A stretch of 64,000 bases of DNA from Arenicola marina (taxonomy: Eukaryota > Annelida > Polychaeta > Arenicolidae). Location of the stretch: NCBI GenBank assembly GCA_964019135.1, contig OZ025261.1:35578820-35642819 (forward strand), written 5' to 3'. Each line of letters opens with the position of its first letter. The stretch's first letter is position 1. A program made the position numbers and the translations under genes. The notes under the pieces were generated by a model, which was not told the DNA's origin, searched no databases, and saw nothing but the letters and a program-made list of their open reading frames with translations. This document shows positions 24,001-64,000 of this stretch, in pieces.

Positions 24001-25243
24001 GGAGGAACCGCCAGAGGACAAAGCGGTCGATGCGCTAGGGGTGATAGGGGAGAGCAAAGGCCTGCAGCAGCGTCCCGAGCCCCAGGGTGCTGACAGTCCC
24101 GATTTGACTAGCTTCGGGGAGGCTCACATCGTGCAGGGTAAGGCCAACGCCCCACTGGACTGCAGCACCAAAACCACCGACGTTCGAGAAGGAAACCATC
24201 CGCCAGATTCTAAAACGCGACCCGAACGAACACGTGACGTCGATGTGACGGCTGGTGACGTCACTGCCCAAGAGGACGTCACCAACACCGACGAACGCCA
24301 AAGCGACGAGAGCGATGACGCAACCAGTAAGAGTGGCAGCCAAGGTGATGACGAGGATATTGCCTCAGACAAGGTGTCCGATGCGGCAGGTGAAGAGCAA
24401 GATGCCATCCAGACTGAGAAGGATGAGTCGTCTCCGACGACGTCTCCGGGGCCAGAGGACCGTCCATCTCTCCGCATCGATGACTCCTTCATTGCCGAGC
24501 TGCGAAGTCAGGTGGACTCTCTGATGGGATATACGTCACAAAAAGACACAGATATCAGAGCCGAAGATGCGAATGTCGTCCGTACAGAACAAACAGCTGT
24601 AGACCTTAACCAAAATGACATGGAGCCGAAACCACCATCTGAGCCCCTCACGGAAAGAACCCCTGGGCTAAGCCCTGGTGAACAGACTCTAAATCCCATC
24701 CAAACGTTGCGCGGTGACCTCATTCAATCCCCGCCGACAGTCATTACGTCACAAGACCAGGCGGTCTCTGAAGTAAGTGACGTCAGCTGTCCCGAGAGCA
24801 TTGAGGAGGAGGTCGAGGAACAGCTTGATGAGGTCCCAGAGGACCTCGACGATGAAGTGCGAAATGACCACAATACTGAGGTACGAAATGACGTCCAAGT
24901 TGACCGCCAAGCCGAGGTACGATGTGACCAGGATGTCGATGGATGTCCACAAGATGATTACCACGAGAATTCTAAACAGGCTGTTGGTCACTCCGACGAG
25001 GCACTGCCGACTGACAACGACCCGGAAGTGGGCAATACTCGTCATGTGATACCCGCACATGAAGAAGCCACCGGGGACCTGGTTCTAGCGGAGCCTGGAC
25101 CAGAGATGGAGGGGGACGGGGCGCCCAAGGCTGACTTCCTGCACACTCTCCTCGCCGAGAGCACAGCGGAGGAGGGCGAAGAGCAGAGGGCGGCTGTAGG
25201 GGCGCTGGAGACGGTCGTGGAAGAGGAAGAGGTCTCCCAGTGA
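21003..25243 (+). CDS. Large coiled-coil protein, CCDC181/MAP9-like, 1307 aa, two exons, complete
   Basis: Exons are 21003-21804 and 22122-25243. The donor is GCGGAGG|GTAAGG, the acceptor TTTTGATGCAG, phase 1, joining as TWAEG-DEGMLLID. Residues 170-212 form a coiled coil (LQQKYLELKQMLEETY then a basic helix). SGTQTQTE at 247-254 is a good dynein light chain LC8 (TQT) docking motif. Three lysine-rich helices each centre on a Trp: KIKQWLKEKNR (W435), KVKLWMAQKGK (W482) and SYDVWLKKKRK (W670). This W-L-x-K-K pattern is seen in CCDC181, CCDC34 and MAP9, which bind microtubules in cilia, manchette or spindle. Residues 760-790 repeat SLKDTGVERAP. SWDQFSDYVWDKLN (880-893) is compact and may be a conserved motif. 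The last 400 residues are acidic. The family call is a pattern judgement, not an alignment. A CDS in an upstream exon cannot be excluded. Confidence 0.8.
23597..23692 (+). repeat. In-frame 33 bp coding repeat (11 aa), three copies
   Basis: Three tandem copies encode SSKDTGDERAP, SLKDTGVERAP and SLKDTGVERAR within exon 2 of the coiled-coil gene. The unit is a multiple of three and the last two copies are almost identical, indicating a recent in-frame expansion that may be polymorphic. Confidence 0.85.
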
Positions 25244-26337: not shown

Positions 26338-27006
26338 CTAGAAGGGAATGATGCAATACCCCCTGTATTTGTCAGAAGCATCGTCCACAGTGTTCATCGC
26401 GGCGAACAGGCTGGCCGTCGTCGCCCAACACTCCTCAGTGGCTCCCCATACATCCATCACCAGAAATCGGTCAGTGTCCTTATGGTACGCAGCCAGTGGA
26501 CTGTGATGACCATAGGTTGGAGATTGGCCAAGAGTGGCCATATGGTAGTTCACAATAACAGCCGTCGTGGAATCCACATGGGACAAAGCATCCATGGCTT
26601 TCTGTCTGAAGACGTCAACTGAGCTTTCATTGCAGTGATATTTCTCAGTTTTCTTGTTATGACGGATCAGTATGTCATATAGTTGATCCAATGTAAGCCC
26701 ATCCATTTTGTGCACTTGGTCTTGATCTGCCACTGACAAGGTCTCTTGAAAGTCAAACATTTTTGCTTCTGTATACTTCAGGTTGGCTTTATCAATTACT
26801 ATTTCTTTCTCAACAGAGATGGGTTCTTTCTGCCCTATATCCCAAGCACCAAGAACCAGAGCTGCGCTTTGGATGCCACAGTTAACCATGCCAGTCTGCT
26901 TACAGAAGACCGCCATCAGCAAAGGCTGGCATACACCACCTCCTCCCCTAACCTGCTGCAGAAGCCTTTGTCCTTCAGGAGATTTTAACTCAATCAAAGA
27001 ACTCAT
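26338..27006 (-). CDS. Phytochelatin synthase, catalytic domain only, 222 aa
   Basis: The family's enzymes are gamma-glutamylcysteine dipeptidyl transpeptidases. They cleave glutathione and, with metal bound, build phytochelatins that chelate cadmium, zinc and arsenic in the cytosol. The papain-like triad is complete: C43 (MVNCGIQSAALVL), H167 (YGHHSPLAAYH) and D185 (LVMDVWG). The H-to-D spacing of 18 equals that of plant PCS (recalled Arabidopsis C56/H162/D180). SPEGQRLL (9-16) matches the N-terminal SS-EGK motif, and MNTVDDASDKYRGYCIIPF matches the domain's last strand. The protein stops there, so the Cys-rich C-terminal metal-sensing half of plant and nematode PCS is missing, as in cyanobacterial short forms. 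The frame is intact. A good acceptor (TTTAATTTCAG) 10 nt upstream of the ATG implies an unlocated upstream exon, probably leader. Confidence 0.88.
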   Translation of the reverse strand: MSSLIELKSPEGQRLLQQVRGGGGVCQPLLMAVFCKQTGMVNCGIQSAALVLGAWDIGQKEPISVEKEIVIDKANLKYTEAKMFDFQETLSVADQDQVHKMDGLTLDQLYDILIRHNKKTEKYHCNESSVDVFRQKAMDALSHVDSTTAVIVNYHMATLGQSPTYGHHSPLAAYHKDTDRFLVMDVWGATEECWATTASLFAAMNTVDDASDKYRGYCIIPF

Positions 27007-44487: not shown

Positions 44488-45075
44488 GCTTGTAGCAGTC
44501 TGGGGGTGTTGGAGCAGTTTTTTTGTGGGGGCGTTTGTAGCAATCTGGGACGCTTGTAGCAATTTGTGGGGCGTGTGTAGCAGTGTGTGGGGCGTTTGTA
44601 GCAATTAGTGGGACATCTGTTACAATATGTTGAGCATCTGTAGCTTGTAGCAGTCTGGGGGGGTTGGAGCAATTTTTTTGTGGGGGCGTTTGTAGCAATC
44701 TGGGACGCTTGTAGCAATTTGTGGGGCGTGTGTAGCAGTGTGTGGGGCGTTTGTAGCAATTAGTGGGGCATCTGTTACAATATGTTGAGCATCTGTAGCT
44801 TGTAGCAGTCTGGGGGGGTTGGAGCAGCTTTTTGTGGGGGCGTTTGTAGCAATCTGGGACGCTTGTAGCAATTTGTGGGGCGTGTGTAGCAGTGTGTGGG
44901 GCGTTTGTAGCAATTAGTGGGGCATCTGTTACAATATGTTGAGCATCTGTAGCAGTGTGTGAAGATTGTAGCAATATGCAGGGTGTTTGTAGCAGTCTGG
45001 GGCCCTTGTAGCTATCTGTGGACGATTGTAGCAGTTTGGGGCCCTTGAAGCAATCTGTGGGGCGTTTGTAGTAAT
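44488..45075. repeat. Nested minisatellite: about 157 bp unit (3 copies) built of about 20 bp sub-units
   Basis: Three long units (starting near 44489, 44648 and 44802) each contain sub-units of the type ggggcgtttgtagcaat or ggggcgtgtgtagcagt. The array then degenerates to 45075. Its open minus-strand frames (CYKRP-type repeats) are a by-product and not a gene. Confidence 0.88.
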
Positions 45076-47230
45076 GTGGGGGATTCTTGCAGAGAAGAGT
45101 ACTGTAGCGGGTACTGTGTCAATTCAGCGGTTTCGCATATCGGATCTGTCGCATTAGGTCTAGCATTTAATGCAGTCTGCACGTTGAGTGATATATATTC
45201 TTTTTATTGGTGTTTTTCGTATCAAATAGAGGTTAATGCCACCGTGGCGAGATATGGTGATGCGACGGTATTGTCAATACCAGTGGCGAGATAATTAGTT
45301 ACTTAAAGGTCGCATAATACAATGAGCTGATAGCATAAAGTGATAAACAAGATGCGATGTCTCCCATTTGCAGAATTCATTTTCATCATTCAAGGTTGCT
45401 CATCAATCAATACAGATACTGAATTAGATGGAACAGTGGTCTTAGCTCTGTACTAGTACACTGTGTAGTACAGGTATAATAGTAGCATCACCCCGGTGGG
45501 TGGGTAGTGCGCTCGATTGCTTGGTATCAATCATTCATTTTGCAATTTAGCGGCGGAGGATAAAAAAAAGTAGTCCCGGCGCTGGTTGCATGGCTCACGC
45601 CCGGGCCAGACAACATGTCGACGTATTTGCCAATGATAGACGGTGAGTCATGGCGGAGGAATTAGACAGTTGCTCGACCAGATGGCGGCCATATTGTGGC
45701 GTTAATAGGCTATTGCAGAGCGTCTGTTTGTCTGACATTGGCTTCTTATCTCCCTGATACAGCTCTGCATAGCCTGACGCGATCCACCATTAAGACTGTG
45801 ACAAGGCCATCTGGAAAAGCGCTCTTGTGATTGGTCCTCTCCCGTGGCCCTGTCGCTGTTCTCGCCGTTGATTGGCCAGTGGCAATCATGTTGTGCTGTT
45901 GGATTAATTATGCATGGGCTCAGTTGGCCACCCTTCAGGTATAATATGCTATAGTGTTATATGTTGTGTGAACGATGGGTATTTGGTCATATTATTTTCT
46001 CATCATTATAGTTTAAAACGATTTTGGCGTGATGTTTGAGGTCCTTGCGATTGTGGGGTCGTGGTCTGAAGGTGTTGCTGCTGCAATAGTTTTTAGCCGG
46101 TCTAGAGTCCAACGCCCTCATTCCCCCGACCCCCCGCCCCCTTGCCCCCACCTCCACCGACCCCCCCACCCCCCTCGTATGACAATGTCGGCGTTCTTCG
46201 ACTTCTTTTACAACTGATCTTTATACAATACTAAAATTTTATTTTCATCTGTTTGTGCGTCTTTGTCAGCTTCCTTGGCGGTGGAGGCAGACGCTTTATT
46301 TCGAATGTTCGTGGGCATATATGCTTCAAATTCCACGTCTTCTATTCGCTGGTGTTCTTAAAAAGTAGACAGATGTTTCTATCTCGATTTCCGCGTGACG
46401 ATAACGAATGGGCGAAAACCTTGTGTCGATTTTCATGTCTGATGCTAGTGGTCATTCAAAATAGGATTGTAAGATAACAGGGTGACCGTTTTTATGGAAT
46501 AAACCTATGACCTTATTTCATGCTTTTCGTATTATTTTCTATAGTTAGCTTCCATGTATATATCCCGTGACCTTTGTTGTCGCGGTTCATCACTTGAGTA
46601 CACAACATTGGTCTTTAATCGTTAATCTATTGTCTGATGCTTGCGTTATTGCGACTTATTTCCGTTATACGTTAATTTCGGAGCTAACACAACACAATCA
46701 CAATCAACATGTCAACACAATGTACAACATGTCAACACAATGTACAACATGTCAACACAATGTACAACATGTCGTGACAACAATACTAGTATCGACAACC
46801 TGCGAGAGCCATTGGTGTGATCTCTGGTGTCAATAAGTCATGTCGTCTTATTAGCTTTTCCGCCATCAGTGTTCCACGCAATCCTCTGATGACTATCGTT
46901 GCTACGCTCTCTTTGTAGTTTCCAGAGATTTTTATTCAAACATTTTCAGGTGTCTTTTTACATAATGTCGTTTATAATTAGAATCACTCTGTACGCTATA
47001 ACAAACACATATATATAAACAATCAATAGCTTTGTTATTATTATTACATAAAATTGGACACAAGAATCTTAATTTACCATAAAAAAAAGTATTTGATTAA
47101 TTGTTAGCATCTGAAGTCAGTTAACCTCTGTAAAAACGTACCGATGGGCAAAATACAAAGTACGCCGGCCATGCAGGGTCACATCTGACCTCCTGACCCC
47201 TGACCTTTGACCTGTGGGTGTCGCTTGCAG
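45076..47230. other. Upstream flank of the CYB5R exons; first exon not located
   Basis: The initiator exon of CYB5R should lie upstream of 47231 and end in phase 0. I examined ATG...GT combinations here and found none that fits well. The stretch is otherwise non-coding, with a 20 bp repeat listed separately. Confidence 0.5.
46705..46773. repeat. 20 bp tandem repeat, about 3.4 copies
   Basis: The unit is caacatgtcaacacaatgta. The copies are identical. Non-coding. Confidence 0.93.
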
Positions 47231-47377
47231 ACGATTCCCGTGCTGGTCGGTGTGGGGGTGGTGGCAGTGACCGCCATCTTGGCCAAGGTGTTCCTGTTCA
47301 GCGGCAAGAAGAAGCAGTCGCCGTTAACGCTGAAGGACGCCACCGTCAAGTACCCACTCAAGCTGGTTGACAAGGAG
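47231..47377 (+). CDS. CYB5R exon: membrane anchor and start of FAD domain
   Basis: This is 49 codons in phase 0 to 0. The acceptor is cgcttgcag and the donor AAGGAG|GTGAGG. It encodes a single hydrophobic segment, a GKKK basic stop-transfer patch, then [18 protein letters not shown]. There is no ATG in frame at its start, so the initiator must sit in an upstream exon. Its last 25 nt are copied into the tandem array of the following intron. Confidence 0.93.
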
Positions 47378-50300
47378 GTGAGGCGTCCACTGTTTTACTG
47401 TTAATCCTCGCTGTTAGTCCAGTCAGTCCCACTCACAAGCTGGTCGACAAGGAGGTGAGGCGTCCACTGTTTTACTGTTTATCCTCGCTGTTAGTCTAGT
47501 CAGTCCCACTGACAAGCTGGTCGACAAGGAGGTGAGGCGTCCACTGCATTACTGGTAATCCTCGCTGTTAGTCCAGTCAGTCCCACTCACAAGCTGGTCG
47601 ACAAGGAGGTGAGGCGTCCACTGTTTTACTGTTAATCCTCGCTGTTAGTCCAGTCAGTCCCACTCACAAGTTGGTCGACAAGGAGGTGAGGCGTCCACTG
47701 TTTTACTGTTAATCCTCGCTGTTAGTCCAGTCAGTCCCACTCACAAGCTGGTCGACAAGGAGGTGAGGCGTCCACTGTTTTACTGTTAATCCTCGCTGTT
47801 AGTCCAGTCAGTCCCACTCACAAGCTGGTCGACAAGGAGGTGAGGCGTCCACTGCATTACTGTTAATCCTCGCTGTTAGTCCAGTCTGTCCCACTCACAA
47901 GCTGGTCGACAAGGAGGTGAGGCGTCCACTGTTTTACTGTTAATCCTCGCTGTTAGTCCAGTCAGTCCCACTCACAAGCTGGTCTACAAGGAGGTATTTC
48001 TAAAGCTTATACTCTCTTTGGGCTACAGCGCTCGCACTGAGTGCTCGGCCACCTGAGCCAATCGATCCCATGTCCTTCTTCGCAAAGATTAGCCCCCCCC
48101 CCAGGTGCATGGCTCCACTCCCCATTCTTCCTTCTCCCATTGACGCGATATGACCCAAAGTGGTTAAAGCGACCTGAATATACAACCAACCAACCAAGGC
48201 TAATACTGGGTTTTGAAATATGTCTGTCCAACGGGTCATCAAGCAAACCCGTTGCTTGCACCCCCAACTGACCCCCTGGTACCTTCATCTGGGGCAGGTC
48301 ACATCCAGCCCCATGTCATTGTTCCTTAGGCTTTATTGGCCAAGAGGACGGATATTAGCTTGTGAACCAAGGCATACCTGAGTTACACAGGACTCGGCGC
48401 TAACATCATACACAAGGACCAATTGTACCACCTCTTATATATATATATTTACGCAGCAGCTTTTCGTCGTTAACATTGTTAGCATATGACATATGTTAAA
48501 ATCTATGATGGGCTGGTTGGTGGCTTAGCTGCCTGTCATTATACACGCTGTCTCCTTCCACTGCCAGGTGATCAGCCATGACACGAGGAGGTTCCGCTTC
48601 GCTCTGCCCTCCCCTGAACACATCCTGGGGCTCCCTGTAGGTAAGTCACCCTCGCTGTTCTATGTACTACCCCCACCCCCCCTCCACGTCTCACCGCTCT
48701 TCCCTCCCCTGAACACATCCTGGGGCTCCCTGTAGGTAAGTCACCCTCGCTGTTCTATGTACTACCCCCACCCCCCCTCCACGTCTCACCGCTCTGCCCT
48801 CCCCTGAACACATCCTGGGGCTCCCTGTCGGTAAGTCACCCTCGCTGTTCTATGTACTACCCCCACCCCCCCTCAACGTCTCACCGCTCTGCCCTCCCCT
48901 GAACACATCCTGGGGCTCCCTGTCGGTAAGTCACCCTCGCTGTTCTATGTACTACCCCCACCCCCCCCCCCCCCTCCACGTCTCACCGCTCTGCCCTCCC
49001 CTGAACACATCCTGGGGCTCCCTGTCGGTAAGTCACCCTCGCTGTTCTATGTACTACCCCCACCCCCCCCCCCTTCACGTCTCACCGCTCTGCCCTCCCC
49101 TGAACACATCCTGGGGCTCCCTGTCGGTAAGTCACCCTCGCTGTTCTATGTACTACCCCCACCCACCCCCCCCCCTTCACGTCTCACCGCTCTGCCCTCC
49201 CCTGAACACATCCTGGGGCTCCCTGTCGGTAAGTCACCCTCGCTGTTCTATGTACTACCCCCACCCCCCCCCCCCTTCACGTCTCACCGCTCTGCCCTCC
49301 CCTGAACACATCCTGGGACTCCCTGTCGGTAAGTCACCCTCGCTGTTCTATGTACTACCCCCACCCCCCCTCCACGTCTCACCGCTCTTCCCTCCCCCGA
49401 ACACATCCTGGGACTCCCTGTCGGTAAGTCACCCGCGCTGTTCTATGTACTCACCCCCCTCCTCCAGGCCTCACCGCTCTGCCCTTTCAAGAAACGCGTC
49501 TCGCCCCAATATTAGTTACATGTATATATTTCACCTTCACATCGACTGTAGATTGTTTTTTTGATAACGAGTTTGAATGATATCACTCTTTCTATCTGTT
49601 TTATTAAATAAGTGATTACCGTTATCATTTCTTTATTAAATGCACCTCTAAGCGTCATAGATTCTGCATCCTGTGACGTGTTTGTGAGTAGTGCTCAGAA
49701 CTGATGGCCGGATACGCGAAACCACGTGGTTTATGTCTTATGGTCTGCATTTTCATAGCCTTTACTCACACTGCCTGCAATGTTTCAATTGTATAAAATG
49801 GTTTATATAGTTGCTTGTATCTTATCCACAAGGCCAATAACACACGAACGTTTGCTTGTAAGCGATGTATAATAATACGAACACATTCCTCAGCTAAAGC
49901 AACGCAGCACAATAGTCATATGATTTGCGGTGTGTCCACTTATCTCGTGTAAGTCGTTCTCCGTGTTGTCAATGGTAACCTTGCTCGTGACGCAGGTCAG
50001 CACATCTACCTGAGCTGTAAGGTGAACAACGAGCTGGTCATCAGACCTTACACACCCGTCTCCAGCGACGACGACAAGGGATTCGTCGACCTCGTCGTCA
50101 AGGTAACGAATACTGTGCTTTAGGAGCATCCTCTCTAGCGCAAAGGAAAACGTGACATTCATTGGTCTCGCAATACGTTATCAAACTAGTATGGCACTTT
50201 CCTGAGTCAGCGGATGCTATCTTAAAGATGATGTATATATATGTATATATGTAAAAAAACTACATCTAGATGTTTTTGAAGAACTGCTGTATCATGCTCT

Positions 50301-53300
50301 GGCGGTTCTACGGTCCTGCGATGGCCGGTCTCCTGTGGCCTCCGACTGTACATCGCGTCATCACGCCCTGGCGGTTCTACGGTCCTGCGGTGGCCGGTCT
50401 CCCGTGACCTGCGACTGTAAATGACGTCATCACGCCCTGGCGGTTTTACGGTCCTGCGGTGGCCGGTCTCCCGTGGCCTGCGACTGTACATCGCGTCATC
50501 ACGCTCTGGCGGATCTACGGTTCTGCGGTGGCCGGTCTCCCGTGGCCTCCGACTGTACATCGCGTCATCACGCTCTGGCGGATCTACGGTTCTGCGGTGG
50601 CCGGTCTCCCGTGGCCTGCGACTGTACATCGCGTCATCACGCTCTGGCGGATCTACGGTCCTGCGGTGGCCGGTCTCCCGTGGCCTCCGACTCTACATTG
50701 CGTCATCACGCTCTGGCGGTTCTACGGTCCTGCCATGGCCGGTCTCCCGTGGCCTCCGACTGTACATCGCGTCATCACGCTCTGGCGGATCTACGGTCCT
50801 GCGGTGGCCGGTCTCCCGTGGCCTCCGAATCTACATTGCGTCATCACGCTCTGGCGGTTCTACGGTCCTGCCATGGCCGGTCTCCCGTGGCCTCCGACTG
50901 TACATCGCGTCATCACGCTCTGGCGGATCTACGGTCCTGCGGTGGCCGGTCTCCCGTGGCCTGCGACTGTACATCGCGTCATCACGCTCTGGCGGATCTA
51001 CGGTCCTGCGGTGGCCGGTCTCCCGTGGCCTCCGACTGTACATCGCGTCATCACGCTCTGGCGGATCTACGGTCCTGCGGTGGCCGGTCTCCCGTGGCCT
51101 CCGAATCTACATTGCGTCATCACGCTCTGGCGGATCTACGGTCCTGCGGTGGCCGGTCTCCCGTGGCCTCCGAATCTACATTGCGTCATCACGCTCTGGC
51201 GGATCTACGGTCCTGCGGTGGCCGGTCTCCCGTGGCCTCCGACTGTACATCGCGTCATCACGCTCTGGCGGATCTACGGTCCTGCGGTGGCCGGTCTCCC
51301 GTGGCCTCCGAATCTACATTGCGTCATCACGCTCTGGCGGTTCTACGGTCCTGCCATGGCCGGTCTCCCGTGGCCTCCGACTGTACATCGCGTCATCACG
51401 CTCTGGCGGATCTACGGTCCTGCGGTGGCCGGTCTCCCGTGGCCTCCGACTCTACATTGCGTCATCACGCTCTGGCGGTTCTACGGTCCTGCCATGGCCG
51501 GTCTCCCGTGGCCTCCGACTGTACATCGCGTCATCACGCTCTGGCGGATCTACGGTCCTGCGGTGGCCGGTCTCCCGTAGCCTCCGACTCTACATTGCGT
51601 CATCACGCTCTGGCGGTTCTACGGTCCTGCCATGGCCGGTCTCCCGTGGCCTCCGACTATACATCGCGTCATCACGCTCTGGCGGATCTACGGTCCTGCG
51701 GTGGCCGGTCTCCCGTGGCCTCCGACTCTACATTGCGTCATCACGCTCTGGCGGTTCTACGGTCCTGTCATGGCCGGTCTCCCGTGGCCTCCGACTCTAC
51801 ATCGCGTCATCACGCTCTGGCGGTTCTACGGTCCTGCGGTGGCCGGTCTCCCGTGGCCTCCGACTGTACATCGCGTCATCACGCTCTGGCGGTTCTACGG
51901 TCCTGCCATGGCCGGTCTCCCGTGGCCTCCGACTGTACATCGCGTCATCACGCTCTGGCGGTACTACGGTCCTGCGGTGGCCGGTCTCCCGTGGCCTCCG
52001 ACTCTACATTGCGTCATCACGCTCTGGCGGTTCTACGGTCCTGCCATGGCCGGTCTCCCGTGGCCTCCGACTGTACATCGCGTCATCACGCTCTGGCGGT
52101 ACTACGGTCCTGCGGTGGCCGGTCTCCCGTGGCCTCCGACTCTACATTGCGTCATCACGCTCTGGCGGTTCTACGGTCCTGCCATGGCCGGTCTCCCGTG
52201 GCCTCCGACTGTACATCGCGTCAGCACGCAAAGGCGTTTCTACGGGTTACAGATTCCGAACGTCCTGACTCTCACGGGATTTATTTTCAAAGCAAGACTT
52301 TCAAACAGTTTTAGCGACACCTCCGTGATATAACAGTAGCAATGATCTGCCTCGAGCAGTGCGGTGTAAGCTCTCAAACAGTGTTAGCGAAACCTCCGTG
52401 ATATAACAGTGGCAATGATCTGCCTCGAGCAGTGCGGTGTAAGCTCTCCAACAGTGCTGGCGACACCTCTGTGATATAACAGTGGCAATGATCTGCCTCG
52501 AGCAGTGCGGTGTAAGCTCTCAAACAGTGTTGGCGACACCTCCGTGATACAACTATGGCAATGATCTGCCTCGAGCAGTGCGGTGTAAGCTCTCAAACAG
52601 TGCTGGCGACACCTCCGTGATATAACAGTGGCAATGATCTGCCTCGAGCAGTGCGGTGTAAGCTCTCAAACAGTGTTAGCGACACCTCCGTGATATAACA
52701 GTGGCAATGATCTGCCTCGAGCAGTGCGGTGTAAGCTCTCCAACAGTGCTGGCGACACCTCCGTGATATAACAGTGGCAATGATCTGCCTCGAGCAGTGC
52801 GGTGTGAGCTCTCAAACAGTGTTAGCGACACCTCCGTGATATAACAGTGGCAATGATCTGCCTCGAGCAGTGCGGTGTAAGCTCTCCAACAGCGTTGGCG
52901 ACACCTCCGTGATATAACAGTGGCAATGATCTGCCTCGAGCAGTGCGGTGTAAGCTCTCCAACAGTGCTGGCGACACCTCCGTGATATAACAGTGGCAAT
53001 GATCTGCCTCGAGCAGTGCGGTGTAAGCTCTCAAACAGTGTTAGCGAAACCTCCGTGATATAACAGTGGCAATGATCTGCCTCGAGCAGTGCGGTGTAAG
53101 CTCTCAAACAGTGTTAGCGACACCTCTGTGATATAACAGTGGCAATGATATGCCTCGAGCAGTGCGGTGTAAGCTCTCCAACAGTGTTAGCGACACCTCC
53201 GTGATATAACAGTGGCAATGATCTGCCTCGAGCAGTGCGGTGTAAGCTCTCAAACAGTTTTAGCGACACCTCCGTGATATAACAGTGGCAATGATCTGCC

Positions 53301-56300
53301 TCGAGCAGTGCGGTGTAAGCTCTCCAACAGTGCTGGCGACACCTCCGTGATATAACAGTGGCAATGATCTGCCTCGAGCAGTGCGGTGTAAGCTCTCAAA
53401 CAGTTTTAGCGACACCTCCGTGATATAACAGTGGCAATGATCTGCCTCGAGCAGTGCGGTGTAAGCTCTCAAACAGTGTTAGCGACACCTCCGTGATATA
53501 ACAGTGGCAATGATCTGCCTCGAGCAGTGCGGTGTAAGCTCTCAAACAGTGTTAGCGAAACCTCCGTGATATAACAGTGGCAATGATCTGCCTCGTGCAG
53601 TGCGGTGTAAGCTCTCAAACAGTGTTGGCGACACCTCCGTGATATAACAGTGGCAATGATCTGCCTCGAGCAGTGCGGTGTAAGCTCTCCAACAGTGCTG
53701 GCGACACCTCCGTGATATAACAGTGGCAATGATCTGCCTCGAGCAGTGCGGTGTAAGCTCTCAAACAGTGTTAGCGACACCTCCGTGATATAACAGTGGC
53801 AATGATCTGCCTCGAGCAGTGCGGTGTAAGCTCTCAAACAGTGTTGGCGACACCTCCGTGATATAACAGTGGCAATGATCTGCCTCGAGCAGTGCGGTGT
53901 AAGCTCTCCAACAGTGCTGGCGACACCTCCGTGATATAACAGTGGCAATGATCTGCCTCGAGCAGTGCGGTGTAAGCTCTCAAACAGTGTTAGCGACACC
54001 TCCGTATATCGTCCCTCTCTCTTTCTCCCCTCTTTCACAGATCTACTTCAAGAACGTGCACCCCAAGTTCCCGGATGGAGGCAAGATGTCTCAGTACCTG
54101 GAGGGCATGGAGATCGGCGACTACATCGACTTCCGCGGACCCAACGGACTGCTCGTCTACCAGGGCCAGGGTCAGTGCCGCCATCATGGCTCTTACTATC
54201 ATAATGATAACAATAATAATATAAATTACTATGCTAATGGTAGAAATAGGAATTAGGATGATAATAATAAGAACTATACTCCTTATAAGGGATTATAATA
54301 ATGTAAATTATAATGATAGTAAAATGAACTATAATAATAGGAAGCATAATAAAAGGAATTATAAAAATAAGAATTATGATGATAATCAAAGTTATGGGTT
54401 AATAGTTTCATTATAGAAGTAGAATATCATAATTATGTAAATAAATTAATAATTGTACTAATTATATTAATTGTGCCAATATCTAAGTTTCGTAAGGATC
54501 CCTTGACGCGTTCTTTCACGCAGGATTTGTTTGCCAGACTCTCAGACATCAGATCGTTTACTCAATCAGTCTGTTTGGCGTTATATCTCGTGGTAGATCT
54601 AGTAGATACAAATAATATTATTATGTACATTTTTTAGGAACTTTCGCCATCCGTCCGGACAAGAAGACTCCCCCAGTGAAGAAGTCAGCGAAGAAGCTGG
54701 GCATGATCGCCGGGGGCACTGGTAAGGCAGGGATGGGTGGGGTGGTAGCTGGGCATGATCGCCGGCGGCACTGGTAAGGCAGGGACGGGTGGGGTGGTAG
54801 CTGGGCATGATCGCCGGCGGCACTGGTAAGGCAGGGATGGGTGGGGTGGTAGCTGGGCATGATCGCCGGCGGCACTGGTAAGGCAGGGATGGGTGGGGTG
54901 GTAGCTGGGCATGGTCGCCGGCGGCACTGGTAAGGCAGGGATGGGTGGGGTGGTAGCTGGGCATGATCGCCGGCGGCACTGGTAAGGCAGGGATGGGTGG
55001 GGTGGTAGCTGGGCATGATCGCCGGCGGCACTGGTAAGGCAGGGATGGGTGGGGTGGTAGCTGGGCATGATCGCCGGCGGCACTGGTAAGGCAGGGATGG
55101 GTGGGGTGGTAGCTGGGCATGATCGCCGGCGGCACTGGTAAGGCAGGGATGGGTGGGGTGGTAGCTGGGCATGATCGCCGGGGGCACTGGTAAGGCAGGG
55201 ATGGGTGGGGTGGTAGCTGGGCATGATCGCCGGCGGCACTGGTAAGGCAGGGATGGGTGGGGTGGTAGCTGGGCATGATCGCCGGCGGCACTGGTAAGGC
55301 AGGGATGGGTGGGGTGGTAGCTGGGCATGATCGCCGGCGGCACTGGTAAGGCAGGGATGGGTGGGGTGGTAGCTGGGCATGATCGCCGGGGGCACTGGTA
55401 AGGCAGGGATGGGTGGGGTGGTAGCTGGGCATGATCGCCGGCGGCACTGGTAAGGCAGGGATGGGTGGGGTGGTAGCTGGGCATGATCGCCGGGGGCACT
55501 GGTAAGGCAGGGATGGGTGGGGTGGTAGCTGGGCATGATCGCCGGCGGCACTGGTAAGGCAGGGATGGGTGGGGTGGAGCTGGGCATGATCGCCGGCGGC
55601 ACTGGTAAGGCAGGGATGGGTGGGGTGGTAGCTGGGCATGATCGCCGGCGGCACTGGTAAGGCAGGGATGGGTGGGGTGGTAGCTGGGCATGATCGCCGG
55701 CGGCACTGGTAAGGCAGGGATGGGTGGGGTGGTAGCTGGGCATGATCGCCGGCGGCACTGGTAAGGCAGGGATGGGTGGGGTGGTAGCTGGGCATGATCG
55801 CCGGCGGCACTGGTAAGGCAGGGATGGGTGGGGTGGTAGCTGGGCATGATCGCCGGCGGCACTGGTAAGGCAGGGATGGGTGGGGTGGTAGCTGGGCATG
55901 ATCGCCGGCGGCACTGGTAAGGCAGGGATGGGTGGGGTGGTAGCTGGGCATGATCGCCAGCGGCACTGGTAAGGCAGGGATGGGTGGGGTGGTAGCTGGG
56001 CATGATCGCCGGCGGCACTGGTAAGGCAGGGATGGGTGGGGTGGTAGCTGGGCATGATCGCCGGCGGCACTGGTAAGGCAGGGATGGGTAGGGTGGTAGC
56101 TGGGCATGATCGCCGGCGGCACTGGTAAGGCAGGGATGGGTGGGGTGGTGGCTGGGCATGATCGCCGGCGGCACTGGTAAGGCAGGGATGGGTGGGGTGG
56201 TAGCTGGGCATGATCGCCGGCGGCACTGGTAAGGCAGGGATGGGTGGGGTGGTAGCTGGGCATGATCGCCGGCGGCACTGGTAAGGCAGGGATGGGTGGG

Positions 56301-59300
56301 GTGGTAGCTGGGCATGATCGCCGGCGGCACTGGTAAGGCAGGGATGGGTGGGGTGGTAGCTGGGCATGATCGCCGGCGGCACTGGTAAGGCAGGGATGGG
56401 TGGGGTGGTAGCTGGGCATGATCGCCGGCGGCACTGGTAAGGCAGGGATGGGTGGGGTGGTAGCTGGGCATGATCGCCGGCGGCACTGGTAAGGCAGGGA
56501 TGGGTGGGGTGGTAGCTGGGCATGATCGCCGGCGGCACTGGTAAGGCAGGGATGGGTGGGGTGGTAGCTGGGCATGATCGCCGGCGGCACTGGTAAGGCA
56601 GGGATGGGTGGAGTGGTAGCTGGGCATGATCGCCGGCGGCACTGGTAAGGCAGGGATGGGTGAGGTGGTAGCTGGGCATGATCGCCGGCGGCACTGGTAA
56701 GGCAGGGATGGGTGGGGTGGTAGCTGGGCATGATCGCCGGCGGCACTGGTAAGGCAGGGATGGGTGGGGTGGTAGCTGGGCATGATCGCCGGCGGCACTG
56801 GTAAGGCAGGGATGGGTGGGGTGGTAGCTGGGCATGATCGCCGGCGGCACTGGTAAGACAGGGATGGGTGGGGTGGTAGCTGGGCATGATCGCCGGCGGC
56901 ACTGGTAAGGCAGGGATGGGTGGGGTGGTAGCTGGGCATGATCGCCGGCGGCACTGGTAAGGCAGGGATGGGTGGGGTGGTAGCTGGGCATGATCGCCGG
57001 CGGCACTGGTAAGGCAGGGATGGGTGGGGTGGTAGCTGGGCATGATCGCCGGCGGCACTGGTAAGGCAGGGATGGGTGGGGTGGTAGCTGGGCATGATCG
57101 CCGGCGGCACTGGTAAGGCAGGGATGGGTGGGGTGGTAGCTGGGCATGATCGCCGGCGGCACTGGTAAGGCAGGGATGGGTGGGGTGGTAGCTGGGCATG
57201 ATCGCCGGCGGCACTGGTAAGGCAGGGATGGGTGAGGTGGTAGCTGGGCATGATCGCCGGCGGCACTGGTAAGGCAGGGATGGGTGGGGTGGTAGCTGGG
57301 CATGATCGCCGGCGGCACTGGTAAGGCAGGGATGGGTGGGGTGGTAGCTGGGCATGATCGCCGGCGGCACTGGTAAGGCAGGGATGGGTGGGGTGGTAGC
57401 TGGGCATGATCGCCGGCGGCACTGGTAAGGCAGGGATGGGTGGAGTGGTAGCTGGGCATGATCGCCGGCGGCACTGGTAAGGCAGGGATGGGTGAGGTGG
57501 TAGCTGGGCATGATCGCCGGCGGCACTGGTAAGGCAGGGATGGGTGGGAGTGGTAGCTGGGCATGATCGCCGGCGGCACTGGTAAGGCAGGGATGGGTGG
57601 GGTGGTAGCTGGGCATGATCGCCGGCGGCACTGGTAAGGCAGGGATGGGTGGGTGGTAGCTGGGCATGATCGCCGGCGGCACTGGTAAGGCAGGGATGGG
57701 TGAGGTGGTAGCTGGGCATGATCGCCGGCGGCACTGGTAAGGCAGGGATGGGTGGGGTGGTAGCTGGGCATGATCGCCGGCGGCACTGGTAAGGCAGGGA
57801 TGGGTGAGGTGGTAGCTGGGCATGATCGCCGGCGGCACTGGTAAGGCAGGGATGGGTGGGGTGGTAGCTGGGCATGATCGCCGGCGGCACTGGTAAGGCA
57901 GGGATGGGTGGGGTGGTAGCTGGGCATGATCGCCGGCGGCACTGGTAAGGCAGGATGGGTGGGGCGGTAGCTGGGCATGATCGCCGGCGGCACTGGTAAG
58001 GCAGGGATGGGTGGGGTGGTAGCTGGGCATGATCGCCGGCGGCACTGGTAAGGCAGGGATGGGTGGGGTGGTAGCTGGGCATGATCGCCGGCGGCACTGG
58101 TAAGGCAGGGATGGGTGAGGGTGGTAGCTGGGCATGATCGCCGGCGGCACTGGTAAGGCAGGGATGGGTGGGGTGGTAGCTGGGCATGATCGCCGGCGGC
58201 ACTGGTAAGGCAGGGATGGGTGGGGTGGTAGCTGGGCATGATCGCCGGCGGCACTGGTAAGGCAGGGATGGGTGGGGTGGTAGCTGGGCATGATCGCCGG
58301 CGGCACTGGTAAGGCAGGGATGGGTGAGGTGGTAGCTGGGCATGATCGCCGGCGGCACTGGTAAGGCAGGGATGGGGTGGTGGTGGTAGCTGGGCATGAT
58401 CGCCGGCGGCACTGGTAAGGCAGGGATGGGTGGGGTGGTAGCTGGGCATGATCGCCGGCGGCACTGGTAAGGCAGGGATGGGTGGGGTGGTAGCTGGGCA
58501 TGATCGCCGGCGGCACTGGTAAGGCAGGGATGGGTGGGGTGGTAGCTGGGCATGATCGCCGGCGGCACTGGTAAGGCAGGATGGGTGGGGTGGTAGCTGG
58601 GCATGATCGCCGGCGGCACTGGTAAGGCAGGGATGGGTGGGGTGGTAGCTGGGCATGATCGCCGGCGGCACTGGTAAGGCAGGGATGGGTGGGGTGGTAG
58701 CTGGGCATGATCGCCGGCGGCACTGGTAAGGCAGGGATGGGTGGGGTGGTAGCTGGGCATGATCGCCGGCGGCACTGGTAAGGCAGGGATGGGTGGGGTG
58801 GTAGCTGGGCATGATCGCCGGCGGCACTGGTAAGGCAGGGATGGGTGGGGTGGTAGCTGGGCATGATCGCCGGCGGCACTGGTAAGGCAGGGATGGGTGG
58901 GGTGGTAGCTGGGCATGATCGCCGGCGGCACTGGTAAGGCAGGGATGGGTGGGGTGGTAGCTGGGCATGATCGCCGGCGGCACTGGTAAGGCAGGGATGG
59001 GTGGGGTGGTAGCTGGGCATGATCGCCGGCGGCACTGGTAAGGCAGGGATGGGTGGGGTGGTAGCTGGGCATGATCGCCGGCGGCACTGGTAAGGCAGGG
59101 ATGGGTGGGGTGGTAGCTGGGCATGATCGCCGGCGGCACTGGTAAGGCAGGGATGGGTGGGGTGGTAGCTGGGCATGATCGCCGGCGGCACTGGTAAGGC
59201 AGGGATGGGTGGGGTGGTAGCTGGGCATGATCGCCGGCGGCACTGGTAAGGCAGGGATGGGTGGGGTGGTAGCTGGGCATGATCGCCGGCGGCACTGGTA

Positions 59301-62080
59301 AGGCAGGGATGGGTGGGGTGGTAGCTGGGCATGATCGCCGGCGGCACTGGTAAGGCAGGGATGGGTGAGGTGGTAGCTGGGCATGATCGCCGGCGGCACT
59401 GGTAAGGCAGGGATGGGTGAGGTGGTAGCTGGGCATGATCGCCGGCGGCACTGGTAAGGCAGGGATGGGTGGAGGGTGGTAGCTGGGCATGATCGCCGGC
59501 GGCACTGGTAAGGCAGGGATGGGTGGGGTGGTAGCTGGGCATGATCGCCGGCGGCACTGGTAAGGCAGGGATGGGTGGGGTGGTAGCTGGGCATGATCGC
59601 CGGCGGCACTGGTAAGGCAGGGATGGGTGGGGTGGTAGCTGGGCATGATCGCCGGCGGCACTGGTAAGGCAGGGATGGGTGGGGTGGTAGCTGGGCATGA
59701 TCGCCGGCGGCACTGGTAAGGCAGGGATGGGTGGGGTGGTAGCTGGGCATGATCGCCGGCGGCACTGGTAAGGCAGGGATGGGTGAGGTGGTAGCTGGGC
59801 ATGATCGCCGGCGGCACTGGTAAGGCAGGGATGGGTGGGGTGGTAGCTGGGCATGATCGCCGGCGGCACTGGTAAGGCAGGGATGGGTGGGGTGGTAGCT
59901 GGGCATGATCGCCGGCGGCACTGGTAAGGCAGGGATGGGTGGGGTGGTAGCTGGGCATGATCGCCGGCGGCACTGGTAAGGCAGGGATGGGTGGGGTGGT
60001 AGCTGGGCATGATCGCCGGCGGCACTGGTAAGGCAGGGATGGGTGGGGTGGTAGCTGGGCATGATCGCCGGCGGCACTGGTAAGGCAGGGATGGGTGGGG
60101 TGGTAGCTGGGCATGATCGCCGGCGGCACTGGTAAGGCAGGGATGGGTGGGGTGGTAGCTGGGCATGATCGCCGGCGGCACTGGTAAGGCAGGGATGGGT
60201 GGGGTGGTAGCTGGGCATGATCGCCGGCGGCACTGGTAAGGCAGGGATGGGTGGGGTGGTAGCTGGGCATGATCGCCGGCGGCACTGGTAAGGCAGGGAT
60301 GGGTGGGGTGGTAGCTGGGCATGATCGCCGGGCGGCACTGGTAAGGCAGGGATGGGTGGGGTGGTAGCTGGGCATGATCGCCGGCGGCACTGGTAAGGCA
60401 GGGATGGGTGGGGTGGTAGCTGGGCATGATCGCCGGCGGCACTGGTAAGGCAGGGATGGGTGGGGTGGTAGCTGGGCATGATCGCCGGCGGCACTGGTAA
60501 GGCAGGGATGGGTGGGGTGGTAGCTGGGCATGATCGCCGGCGGCACTGGTAAGGCAGGGATGGGTGGGGTGGTAGCTGGGCATGATCGCCGGCGGGCACT
60601 GGTAAGGCAGGGATGGGTGGGGTGGTAGCTGGGCATGATCGCCGGCGGCACTGGTAAGGCAGGGATGGGTGGAGGTGGGTAGCTGGGCATGATCGCCGGC
60701 GGCACTGGTAAGGCAGGGATGGGTGGGGTGGTAGCTGGCATGATCGCCGGCGGGCACTGGTAAGGCAGGGATGGGTGGGGTGGTAGCTGGGCATGATCGC
60801 CGGCGGCACTGGTAAGGCAGGGATGGGTGGGGTGGTAGCTGGGCATGATCGCCGGCGGCACTGGTAAGGCAGGGATGGGTGGGGTGGTAGCTGGGCATGA
60901 TCGCCGGCGGCACTGGTAAGGCAGGGATGGGTGGGGTGGTAGCTGGGCATGATCGCCGGCGGCACTGGTAAGGCAGGGATGGGTGGGGTGGTAGCTGGGC
61001 ATGATCGCCGGCGGCACTGGTAACGGCCAGGGATGGGTGAGGTGGTAGCTGGGCATGATCGCCGGCGGCACTGGTAAGGCAGGGATGGGTGAGGGTGGTA
61101 GCTGGGCATGATCGCCGGCGGCACTGGTAAGGCAGGGATGGGTGAGGTGGTAGCTGGGCATGATCGCCGGCGGCACTGGTAAGGCAGGGATGGGTGGGGT
61201 GGTAGCTGGGCATGATCGCCGGCGGCACTGNNNNNNNNNNNNNNNNNNNNNNNNNNNNNNNNNNNNNNNNNNNNNNNNNNNNNNNNNNNNNNNNNNNNNN
61301 NNNNNNNNNNNNNNNNNNNNNNNNNNNNNNNNNNNNNNNNNNNNNNNNNNNNNNNNNNNNNNNNNNNNNNNNNNNNNNNNNNNNNNNNNNNNNNNNNNNN
61401 NNNNNNNNNNNNNNNNNNNNNNNNNNNNNNGGTGGGGTGGTAGCTTGCCATTATAGCCGTGGCCGTGTATGGATATGTCGCCTCTCGCCACCCTAACACA
61501 AATGGATTTCTCTTCATCCATGTTACCACATGGACGTTCCCTCACCCCCTGTTGCCACGTTCCCTCCCCTAATACCCCCTGTTGCCAGGTTCCCTCTATT
61601 TACCCCCTGTTGCCACGTTCCCTCCCCTAATAACTCCTGTTGCCACGTTCCCTCCCGTCACCCCCTGTTGCCACGTTCCCTCCCGTCACCCCCTGTTGCC
61701 ACGTTCCCTCCCCTAATACCCCCTGTTGCCACGTTCCCTCCCCTAATACCCCTGTCGCTACGTTCCGTCTATTCACCCCCTGTGGCTACGTTCCCTCCAC
61801 TCACCCCCTGTTGCCACGTCTCCCCTCTGTTACCACGTTCCCCTACCCCCCGTTGCCACGTCTCCCCTCTGTTGTCATGTTCCCCTTACCGCCCATTGCC
61901 ACGTCTCCCTCATACTGTTGCCACGACCCCCGCACTTTATTGCCTACCCCCCCCCCTGTTGCCACGGTAACATACGGACGGCGTTCGGCTGCAGGAATCA
62001 CGCCGATGCTGCAGCTGGTGCGCCAGGCTCTGAAGGATCCAGAAGACAAGACCGAGATGTGGCTTCTCTTCGCCAACCAG
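47231..62080 (+). CDS. CYB5R3-like: NADH-cytochrome b5 reductase (CYB5R2/CYB5R3-like), six internal exons, 5' and 3' ends missing
   Basis: The product is a membrane-anchored FAD flavoprotein that passes electrons from NADH to cytochrome b5, serving fatty-acid desaturation, sterol synthesis and methaemoglobin reduction. Exons: 47231-47377, 48568-48640, 49996-50102, 54041-54170, 54638-54721 and 61995-62080. All have AG/GT borders and compatible phases (0,1,0,1,1,0), giving about 209 codons. The first exon encodes a hydrophobic anchor ([19 protein letters not shown]) and YPLKLVDKE. Next come [28 protein letters not shown], the FAD motif [48 protein letters not shown], and the NADH motif [14 protein letters not shown], ending in LLFANQ. 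The order and wording match human CYB5R3 almost block for block (recalled, not aligned). Family members are about 300 residues, so roughly 90 C-terminal residues lie beyond the window. An initiating exon upstream was not found. Every intron except intron 4 carries a large minisatellite. Confidence 0.95.
47353..47995 (+). repeat. CYB5R intron 1 minisatellite, about 77 bp unit spanning the 5' splice junction
   Basis: The unit contains the last 25 nt of the exon plus the donor and about 50 nt of intron. The exon copy is followed by seven full copies and one degenerate final copy (tacaaggaggtattt). Each full copy repeats AAGGAG|GTGAGG unchanged. The array copies read GGTCGACAAG where the exon reads GGTTGACAAG, a silent Val change, and carry a 2 nt insertion before AAGCTGG. 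The rest of intron 1 (48000-48567) holds no repeat or gene I recognise. Confidence 0.93.
48568..48640 (+). CDS. CYB5R exon: HDTRRFRF / [14 protein letters not shown]
   Basis: This 73 nt exon has the acceptor ccactgccag and the donor CTGTAG|GTAAGT, leaving phase 1. The peptide [19 protein letters not shown] is diagnostic for CYB5R1/2/3. Its last 37 nt (48604-48640) are the exonic part of the about 95 bp repeat unit in the next intron. Confidence 0.95.
48604..49490 (+). repeat. CYB5R intron 2 minisatellite, about 95 bp unit spanning the 5' splice junction
   Basis: The unit comprises 37 exonic nt (from CTGCCCTCCCCTG to the exon end), the donor GTAAGT and about 50 nt of intron with a C-run of variable length. 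The authentic exon end is followed by eight further copies of the GTAAGT junction. The nearest copy keeps the exon's CTGTAG, whereas later copies read CTGTCG, a silent Val change. The array decays at a degenerate last copy near 49480; 49500-49995 is ordinary intron. Confidence 0.93.
49996..50102 (+). CDS. CYB5R exon: FAD-binding RPYTP motif
   Basis: This 107 nt exon has the acceptor cgtgacgcag and the donor GTCAAG|GTAACG, ending in phase 0. It encodes QHIYLSCKV, then [16 protein letters not shown] and VDLVVK. RxYT is the isoalloxazine-contact motif of the ferredoxin-reductase fold. This donor is not copied into the arrays that fill the following intron. Confidence 0.95.
50285..52240 (+). repeat. 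CYB5R intron 3 minisatellite A, 69 bp unit, about 28 copies
   Basis: The unit contains cgtcatcacgctctggcgg, tctacggtcctgc, ggccggtctcccgtgg and cctccgactgtacatcg. Alternating variants (gcggtggcc with tgtacatcg; gccatggcc with ctctacattg) suggest a 138 bp dimer as the amplified unit over part of the array. Because 69 is divisible by three, stop-free frames run through the whole array; they are artefacts. No splice donor is present in the unit. Confidence 0.92.
52296..54003 (+). repeat. CYB5R intron 3 minisatellite B, 73 bp unit, about 23 copies
   Basis: The unit contains agcgacacctccgtgatata, acagtggcaatgatctgcc, tcgagcagtgcggtg and taagctctcaaacagtg. The array directly follows array A and stops about 40 bp before the polypyrimidine tract of the next exon. 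It has no exon-derived sequence and is unrelated in sequence to array A. Confidence 0.92.
54041..54170 (+). CDS. CYB5R exon: [11 protein letters not shown]-pyrophosphate segment
   Basis: This 130 nt exon has a strong polypyrimidine tract and acceptor (ctctttcacag) and the donor GGCCAGG|GTCAGT, ending in phase 1. It encodes [20 protein letters not shown] and [20 protein letters not shown] is the FAD pyrophosphate-binding stretch of the family. Confidence 0.95.
54172..54637 (+). other. CYB5R intron 4, AT-rich, no minisatellite
   Basis: This 467 bp intron is rich in irregular aataata / ataataat simple sequence (54200-54480). It is the only complete intron of the gene in this window without a tandem array, and it is also by far the shortest. 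Confidence 0.8.
54638..54721 (+). CDS. CYB5R exon: FAIRPDKK to GMIAGGTG
   Basis: This 84 nt exon has the acceptor acattttttag and the donor GGCACTG|GTAAGG, ending in phase 1. It encodes [15 protein letters not shown] and [10 protein letters not shown], the first half of the NADH-binding GGTGITP loop. The last 27 nt (54695-54721) form the exonic part of the 52 bp repeat that is copied about 125 times downstream. Confidence 0.95.
54695..61445 (+). repeat. CYB5R intron 5 minisatellite, 52 bp unit spanning the 5' splice junction, about 125 copies
   Basis: The unit comprises 27 exonic nt (AGCTGGGCATGATCGCC to GGCACTG) followed by 25 intronic nt (GTAAGGCAGGGATGGGTGG, then ggtggt). It runs almost uninterrupted for 6.5 kb, with a few 1-3 bp indels and single-base variants clustered between 57 and 61 kb. 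The exon has GCCGGGGGC where nearly all copies have GCCGGCGGC (silent Gly). Exon-type copies occur only near the exon (about 55180, 55390, 55490). Since 52 is not a multiple of three, all three minus-strand frames stay open for about 2200 codons. The array is interrupted by an assembly gap. Confidence 0.95.
61231..61430. other. Assembly gap of 200 N inside the intron 5 array
   Basis: Exactly 200 N interrupt the 52 bp array, and array sequence resumes for only about 20 bp afterwards (ggtggggtggtagct). A round-number gap within a near-identical tandem repeat implies the real array length is unknown and probably greater. Confidence 0.97.
61535..61965 (+). repeat. CYB5R intron 5 distal C/T-rich degenerate array
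   Basis: Degenerate units of about 20-32 bp are built on ccccctgttgccacgttccc, with taatacccc or gtcacccc spacers. The array lies between the 52 bp minisatellite and the acceptor of the ITPMLQ exon, and may extend the polypyrimidine tract used for 3' splice-site choice. Confidence 0.85.
61995..62080 (+). CDS. CYB5R exon: ITPMLQ NADH-binding segment
   Basis: This 86 nt exon has the acceptor ttcggctgcag and the donor AACCAG|GTCAGT, ending in phase 0. It encodes [20 protein letters not shown] then MWLLFANQ, completing the GGTGITP loop begun in the previous exon 7.3 kb upstream. The remaining C-terminal exons are outside the window. Confidence 0.95.
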
Positions 62081-64000
62081 GTCAGTGCCGGGACTCTCTA
62101 AATCAGTGCTGGGGCAGGGACTCTCTAGGTCAGTGCCGGGTCAGGGACTCTGTAGGTCAGTGCCGGGTCAGGGACTCTGTAGGTCAGTGCCGGGACAGGA
62201 GCTCTGTAGGTCAGTGCCGGGACAGGGAGTCTGTAGGTCAGTGCCGGGACAGGGAGTCTGTAGGTCAGTGCCGGGTCAGGGACTCTGTAGGTCAGTGCCG
62301 GGACAGGGACTCTGTAGGTCAGTGCCGGGACAGGGACTCTGTAGGTCAGTGCCGGGACAGGGACTCTGTAGGTCAGTGCCGGGACAGGGACTCTGTAGGT
62401 CAGTGCCGGGACAGAGACTCTGTAGGTCAGTGCCGGGACAGGGACTCTGTAGGTCAGTGCCGGGACAGGGACTCTGTAGGTCAGTGCCGGGACAGGGACT
62501 CTCTAGGTCAGTGCCGGGTCAGGGACTCTGTAGGTCAGTGCCGGGACAGGGACTCTGTAGGTCAGTGCCGGGACAGGGACTCTGTAGGTCAGTGCCGGGA
62601 CAGGGACTCTGTAGGTCAGTGCCGGGACAGAGACTCTGTAGGTCAGTGCCGGGACAGGGACTCTGTAGGTCAGTGCCGGGACAGGGACTCTGTAGGTCAG
62701 TGCCGGGACAGGGACTCTGTAGGTCAGTGCCGGGACAGGGACTCTGTAGGTCAGTGCCGGGTCAGGGACTCTGCAGGTCAGTGCCGGGACAGGGACTCTG
62801 TAGGTCAGTGCCGGGTCAGGGACTCTGTAGGTCAGTGCCGGGTCAGGGACTCTGTAGGTCAGTGCCGGGTCAGGGACTCTGTAGGTCAGTGCCGGGTCAG
62901 GGACTCTGTAGGTCAGTGCCGGGACAGGGAGTCTGTAGGTCAGTGTCGGGTCAGGGACTCTGTAGGTCAGTGCCGGGTCAGGGACTCTGTAGGTCAGTGC
63001 CGGGACAGGGACTCTGTAGGTCAGTGCCGGGTCAGGGACTCTGTAGGTCAGTGCCGGGTCAGAGACTCTGTAGGTCAGTGCCGGGACAGGGACTCTGTAG
63101 GTCAGTGCCGGGACAGGGACTCAGTAGGTCAGTGCCGGGACAGGGACTCTGTAGGTCAGTGCCGGGACAGGGACTCTGTAGGTCAGTGCCGGGTCAGGGA
63201 CTCTGTAGGTCAGTGCCGGGTCAGAGACTCTGTAGGTCAGTGCCGGGACAGGGACTCTGTAGGTCAGTGCCGGGACAGGGACTCTGTAGGTCAGTGCCGG
63301 GACAGGGACTCTGTAGGTCAGTGCCGGGACAGGGACTCTGTAGGTCAGTGCCGGGACAGGGACTCTGTAGGTCAGTGCCGGGACAGGGACTCTGTAGGTC
63401 AGTGCCGGGACAGGGACTCTGTAGGTCAGTGCCGGGACAGGGAGTCTGTAGGTCAGTGCCGGGACAGGGACTCTGTAGGTCAGTGCCGGGTCAGGGACTC
63501 TGTAGGTCAGTGCCGGGACTCTCTAAATCAGTGCTGGGGCAGGAACTCTGTAGGTCAGTGCCGGGACAGAGACTCTGTAGGTCAGTGCCGGGACAGGGAC
63601 TCTGTAGGTCAGTGCCGGGTCAGGGACTCTGTAGGTCAGTGCTGGGGCAGGGACTCTCTAGGTCAGTGCCGGGTCAGGGACTCTGTAGGTCAGTGCCGGG
63701 TCAGGGACTCTGTAGGTCTGTGCCGGGTCAGGGACTCTGTAGGTCAGTGCCGGGTCAGGGACTCTGTAGGTCAGTGCCGGGACAGGGAGTCTGTAGGTCA
63801 GTGTCGGGTCAGGGACTCTGTAGGTCAGTGCCGGGACAGGGACGCTGTAGGTCAGTGCCGGGTCAGGGACTCTGTAGGTCAGTGCCGGGACAGGGACTCT
63901 GTAGGTCAGTGCCGGGACAGGGACTCTGTAGGTCAGTGCCGGGTCAGGGACTCTGTAGGTCAGTGCCGGGACAGGGACTCTGTAGGTCAGTGCCGGGACA
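62081..64000 (+). repeat. CYB5R intron 6 minisatellite, 27 bp unit starting at the donor, about 71 copies to window end
   Basis: The unit is GTCAGTGCCGGGACAGG followed by GACTCTGTAG. The array starts at the first intronic base: the exon ends AACCAG and the intron opens GTCAGTGCCGGGAC. Every unit therefore re-creates a junction of the form TAG|GTCAGTG. Two main variants alternate (gggacaggg and gggtcaggg), and blocks of them recur. Read on from the exon in phase 0, every unit ends in an in-frame TAG, so use of a distal donor would truncate the protein. The array runs off the window. Confidence 0.94.

Follow-up and report, generated by a model that had tools for sequence, protein, structure and literature searches.

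Unrelated minisatellites that repeat the 5' splice site open four introns of a CYB5R3 gene in Arenicola marina

The window analyzed here comprises 64,000 nucleotides of the Arenicola marina assembly GCA_964019135.1 (contig OZ025261.1, positions 35,578,820 to 35,642,819 of the forward strand), and from position 47231 onward it carries part of a gene for NADH-cytochrome b5 reductase 3 (CYB5R3) in which four introns begin with tandem arrays that repeat their own 5' splice site (donor). Six exons on the plus strand, joined in phases 0, 1, 0, 1, 1, and 0, give an open frame of 209 amino acids, of which residues 31–209 align without gaps to the mammalian enzyme with an E value of 3.1e-92 (best chain 1ndh, which we take to be bovine CYB5R3). 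All six donors are GT and all six acceptors are AG, and the match to the protein lends good support to the exon ends as assigned. The exons, each placed by the open frame and the CYB5R3 match, are as follows.

47231–47377, plus strand: CYB5R3 exon 1 of the window, ending in phase 0 at GAG/gtgagg
48568–48640, plus strand: CYB5R3 exon 2, ending in phase 1 at TAG/gtaagt
49996–50102, plus strand: CYB5R3 exon 3, donor AAG/gtaacg, without a donor array
54041–54170, plus strand: CYB5R3 exon 4, donor AGG/gtcagt, without a donor array
54638–54721, plus strand: CYB5R3 exon 5, ending in phase 1 at CTG/gtaagg
61995–62080, plus strand: CYB5R3 exon 6, ending in phase 0 at CAG/gtcagt

The window ends before the 3' part of the gene and covers six of its donors. 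No first coding exon of CYB5R3 was found in the window, and since an acceptor-like ...ttgcag precedes the exon at 47231, that exon is probably not the first one. What an earlier first-pass annotation of this DNA called intron 1, and what we continue to number as such, does have an array at its donor, but it is probably not the first intron of the gene.

Tandem arrays start across four of the six donors, namely those that follow 47377, 48640, 54721, and 62080 (introns 1, 2, 5, and 6; arrays I1, I2, I5, and I6), while none of the six acceptors is covered by an array. Tandem Repeats Finder (TRF), a scan for donors and the CYB5R3 frame thus bear out the earlier statement that these four introns open with donor-containing arrays with units of 77, 95, 52, and 27 bp. 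The arrays counted within the gene are given below.

47359–47995, plus strand: array I1, 77-bp unit, 8.3 copies (TRF and donor scan)
48600–49485, plus strand: array I2, 95-bp unit, 9.1 copies (TRF and donor scan)
54695–61230, plus strand: array I5, 52-bp unit, 125.5 copies (TRF and donor scan)
62079–64000, plus strand: array I6, 27-bp unit, cut by the end of the window; TRF starts the array at 62090 (71 copies)
50291–52245, plus strand: intron 3 array, 69-bp unit, 28 copies, covering no splice site (TRF)
52301–54009, plus strand: intron 3 array, 73-bp unit, 23 copies, stopping 31 nt short of the last intron base and covering no splice site (TRF)
61538–61909, plus strand: second array of intron 5, 28-bp-type unit, acceptor not covered (TRF)

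The splice-site GT is retained in nearly every copy of the donor arrays (I1, 8/8; I2, 9/9; I5, 125/125; I6, 70 of 72 unit positions). The eight donors of I1 all read GAG/gtgaggcg at a spacing of exactly 77 bp, and the nine donors of I2 are spaced by 95–102 bp, copies 1 and 2 reading TAG/gtaagtca and the other seven TCG/gtaagtca. Among the 125 donors of I5, 123 are exactly CTG/gtaaggca, with the 52-bp spacing kept in 111 of 124 cases. In I6, 69 of the 71 spacings are 27 bp and two are 21 bp, and a second register contains 24 more GT sites. Directly after I5 come 200 N (61231–61430), so the earlier figure of about 125 copies agrees with what is written out but depends on the assembly and should be read as a lower bound. 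With its exon the unit shares 19 nt (ungapped) or 33 nt (gapped) in I1, 41 nt in I2, 27 nt in I5, and just 2 nt (AG) in I6; three units do carry exon sequence as had been reported, though not with the reported lengths of 25–37 nt.

At the right end of I1, the exon tail occurs for a ninth time and is followed by gtattt (47988–47999), a weaker donor-like site with a predicted U1 duplex of −5.8 vs. −10.2 kcal/mol, which might be the original start of the intron. In I1 and I2, and possibly also in I5, the final partial copy stops within the part derived from the exon; such ends fit slippage between short repeats, although the pattern is too weak to count. Arrays make up 85% of positions 47231–64000 vs. 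14% of positions 1–47230 (18 merged TRF arrays, with the N gap counted as array). For this count and for the chance tests below, weaker TRF rows were dropped, including the AT-rich rows of intron 4 (54292–54377, scores 50–81).

To judge whether the arrays are related we aligned the seven units of the gene locally in all 21 pairs, four of the units coming from donor arrays and three from the other intron arrays, and compared each pair with 200 shuffles. The shuffle fraction is at least 0.010 everywhere. The lowest values, 0.010 for I2/I6 (a short match) and 0.020 for I1/I3b, would not hold up once the 21 tests are corrected for, and the remaining five of the six donor-unit pairs have fractions of 0.065 or more even uncorrected. 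This supports the reading, also put forward in the first-pass annotation, that the donor units are mutually unrelated and arose independently, with no sign of spread from one repeat. No exact 12-mer is common to the CYB5R3 exons (with 20 nt added) and the three non-donor intron arrays or the arrays at 3337–7734 and 44488–45082. A 37-nt stretch taken from the 52-bp array had no exact match in genome_contigs and viral_contigs, as expected for animal sequence.

The copies also hold some information on the direction of growth. When the ungapped exon piece is compared with the array consensus, I1, I2, and I5 each show one difference (GTT in the exon vs. GTC, GTA vs. GTC, and GGG vs. GGC, respectively), all of them synonymous by the reading of the frame. 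The exon state of this variant occurs in I5 only at copies 1, 10, 14, and 16 of 125 (the chance that all three later copies fall within copies 2–16 is 0.0015, calculated post hoc) and in I2 only at copies 1 and 2 of 9, while none of the later I1 copies has the GTT of the exon. Exon-state variants that lie near the exon would be expected if the array was copied from the end of the exon and became homogenized at a greater distance from it.

It is also important to consider which of the many donors the gene can use. An exon extension that stays in frame and free of stops arises at none of the 210 downstream unit positions (7 + 8 + 124 + 71, with GT in 208), a count that leaves aside the terminal gtattt site of I1 and the 24 second-register GT sites of I6. 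The extension contains a stop at 209 of these positions, and a frameshift results at the remaining one, I5 copy 2. Among these positions, therefore, the enzyme requires the first donor, and the protein joins made by the first donors align ungapped with bovine CYB5R3. The downstream donors had been described as equal to the first, which in terms of predicted U1 duplex energy (calculated with the U1 5' end) is true for I1 (8/8) and I5 (123/125). It does not hold for I2, where the first donor has −10.5 and seven of the nine copies a weaker −9.3 kcal/mol, or for I6, where the first donor has −9.1 and all but one of the other GT unit copies are weaker (−7.5 at 65 positions). The nine donor columns of I5 average 0.33 non-consensus cells per column vs. 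0.84 elsewhere, but values as low occur in 25 of the 52 rotated blocks (the unrotated one among them), and we see no sign of selection on the I5 donor copies. Recursive splicing was considered and rejected for I5 (CTG/gt, 125/125) and for seven of the nine I2 copies (TCG/gt), where there is no AG before the GT; AG does directly precede GT in I1 (GAG/gt) and wherever an I6 unit position has a GT (TAG/gt or CAG/gt).

Arrays of this kind are known from amphioxus, as the first-pass annotation had pointed out. Under the name “mirages,” passages of PMC3087553 report intron-exon boundaries of globin genes that are copied in tandem, with one in Gb6 on the acceptor side (six and three units in two haplotypes) and one in Gb9 at the 3' boundary of exon 2; many but not all of the globin copies keep the splice signal. 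Mirages in Adh3 with somatic instability enter that account as a cited case, and undisturbed splicing is suggested there by Adh3 data and by globin reverse transcription PCR results. The corresponding passages of PMC3902484 add mirages in PGBD5 and cite TnC. Unit lengths given in the two accounts are 10–72 bp for Adh3, 60 and 108 bp for PGBD5, and 150–160 bp for the globins. The CYB5R3 arrays resemble these cases in that they span the exon-intron border, here at four of six donors, in that the unit is both exonic and intronic in three of the four (I6 has no exon part beyond its 2 nt), and in that the copies retain the splice signal and the unit lengths are of the same order. Unlike the amphioxus cases as described in these passages, CYB5R3 has four donor-side arrays, up to 125 written-out copies and no array at an acceptor. 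The CYB5R3 arrays have the structure that defines mirages, a known kind, and their earlier designation as an extreme case is appropriate relative to the globin and PGBD5 cases that these passages cover, and to those only. In titles and the starts of abstracts of open-licence literature, searched without CYB5R as a term, we noticed no survey of mirages across a whole genome.

Two other kinds of repeat invite comparison. Tandem duplication across an intron-exon border also copies splice signals in intron gain, as the relevant passage of PMC4974935 describes for potato RdRp. Unlike that case, CYB5R3 has no added protein segment (residues 31–209 vs. bovine CYB5R3), and the copies appear to be intronic. 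Ordinary intronic minisatellites likewise form tandem arrays with similar unit lengths, and the 69-, 73-, and 28-bp arrays of this gene are of that sort, but they cover no splice site, whereas the four arrays described here cover donors.

We consider it likely that the four arrays are mirage-type minisatellites that are tolerated through commitment to the first donor. A stretch reaching from the last bases of the exon into the intron would have been tandemly duplicated once per junction by a local error of replication or repair, and it may then have been expanded and homogenized by slippage, unequal exchange, or gene conversion. The splicing machinery would commit to the exon-proximal donor via exon definition, the co-transcriptional order of events, or both, as the exon-centric form of the proximity rule predicts in the relevant part of a review (PMC10228655). 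If the exon-proximal donor is indeed chosen, a donor array can be tolerated since the first copy leaves the exon and its donor intact and the remainder is intronic, and the arrays may well be neutral.

Several points weigh against this explanation. The same part of the review gives the classical, intron-centric proximity rule as well, which predicts use of the donor nearest the acceptor, that is, the last one (PMC10228655), and we infer use of the first donor in the animal from the protein only; the gene sets the two rules against each other with unusual clarity in nature. I6 shares only 2 nt with its exon, too little to show that this array came from the end of that exon. The donor columns of I6 also show 0.44 vs. 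2.78 non-consensus cells, with only 2 of 27 rotations (the block itself included) as low or lower, which is suggestive of constraint in this one array. Finally, placement by pure chance accounts for the excess at donors only at P 0.004–0.009, as set out below.

Four of the six donors are no more than 45 nt away from the edge of an array, where the null means are 0.30 (circular shift), 0.29 (points in the window), and 0.43 (points in the gene); the corresponding P values are 0.0019 for circular shift and 0.0004 for points inside the gene, and with points in the window none of 20,000 draws reaches four. Two of the six acceptors (48567 and 54040) are equally close to an array edge, though uncovered. 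When every array is reduced to a single unit, introns 1, 2, 3, and 5 measure 649, 606, 416, and 262 bp, and because the array-bearing introns are so short, uniform seeding would place 0.81–0.99 of the seven arrays across a donor by chance vs. the four seen (P 0.004–0.009, with the range depending on an assumed length of 100–1000 bp for intron 6). All of these P values are post hoc since the gene was picked for the pattern. They bear on a rather improbable alternative to mere tolerance, in which the duplications are seeded by a process that acts at 5' splice sites while the chromatin is transcribed, such as a transcription-linked break at the U1-bound exon end. The excess over uniform seeding speaks for such a process, as does the coverage of 4/6 donors vs. 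0/6 acceptors, and the donors with arrays have predicted U1 duplexes of −8.5 to −10.5 kcal/mol vs. −6.5 and −7.0 for those without (a comparison of only four vs. two). Against it, the contrast between donors and acceptors has a Fisher P of 0.06 in a gene chosen for this very pattern, and the absence of arrays at acceptors is unremarkable since under uniform seeding it has a chance of 0.34–0.42. Three of the seven counted arrays of the gene cover no splice site, and the Gb6 mirage as described in the globin account lies at an acceptor (PMC3087553). The four donor units do not agree in the sign of their GC skew (−0.05, −0.52, +0.44, and +0.29), which also leaves R-loops or G-skew unsupported as a common cause. 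The earlier claim that amplification is favored exactly at exon-intron borders, and with it a donor-directed process in general, is weakly supported, given the excess over expectation on one side and the Fisher value and the acceptor-side Gb6 case on the other.

That the arrays are functional seems very unlikely to us. Extra U1 sites might keep long introns from being polyadenylated prematurely, or poison extensions made by leaky splicing at later donors might tune the level of CYB5R3, and the near-universal stops in the downstream extensions, together with the well-conserved donor columns of I6, would suit such a role. The donor columns of I5 show no extra conservation, however, seven of the nine I2 donors are weaker than the first, and AATAAA or ATTAAA occurs on the plus strand after position 46500 only four times (49603, 49635, 54348, and 54440), never within the seven counted arrays; the site at 54348 falls in one of the weak AT-rich TRF rows. 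Even less credible is an assembly artefact in which short repeats were inflated by the assembler. Some support for it comes from the 52-bp array stopping at the gap of 200 N and from the amphioxus accounts, where one globin mirage was aberrantly assembled in a genome draft (PMC3087553) and the PGBD5 repeat numbers differ between two assemblies (PMC3902484). Still, the copies carry individual variants (35 of 124 in I5 are non-consensus, and the I2 spacings range from 95 to 102 bp), and it is at donors that each of the four unrelated arrays begins. We doubt the number of copies more than the existence of the arrays.

Where the four introns begin, the window holds 208 in-register GT donors in excess of the authentic ones, and in I1 and I5 they are near-identical to these. 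Junction counts from CYB5R3 could show which proximity rule decides between donors in vivo, and counting across the genome could tell donors as hot spots of minisatellite birth from donors as sites of mere tolerance. The broader proposition, that a process linked to splice sites repeatedly seeds minisatellites at 5' splice sites in this genome and that the resulting donor banks form a natural experiment, is a speculative one that we hold to be improbable. Should it be true, these banks would set the intron-centric rule (last donor) against the exon-centric rule (first donor) over distances that in one of the introns reach at least 6.4 kb.

Further features accompany the gene. The 69-bp array of intron 3 is open in all three plus-strand frames over long stretches (open reading frames of 615, 613, 373, and 233 amino acids), probably because its unit length is divisible by three. 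Outside CYB5R3, inspection by eye of six of the eleven counted arrays, which is not a test, recognized no exon overlapped by an array. One array at 3337–7734 has a 28-bp unit in about 149 copies with a donor-like AG/GTGGGTA in the unit, and an adjoining exon was not recognized by eye. A 29-bp array at 16339–16642 lies past the AATAAA that follows a minus-strand open frame at 16846–17184. Another minus-strand open frame, at 17480–18136, matches DUF4532 (PF15046, E 1.8e-19). An open frame of 1036 amino acids at 22133–25243 has a weak match to CCDC34 that is below the curated cut-off (22.6 vs. 35 bits), and it contains an in-frame 33-bp coding repeat at 23591–23686. On the minus strand at 26338–27006, a phytochelatin synthase domain (PF05023, E 1.2e-33) is encoded in this animal-like window.

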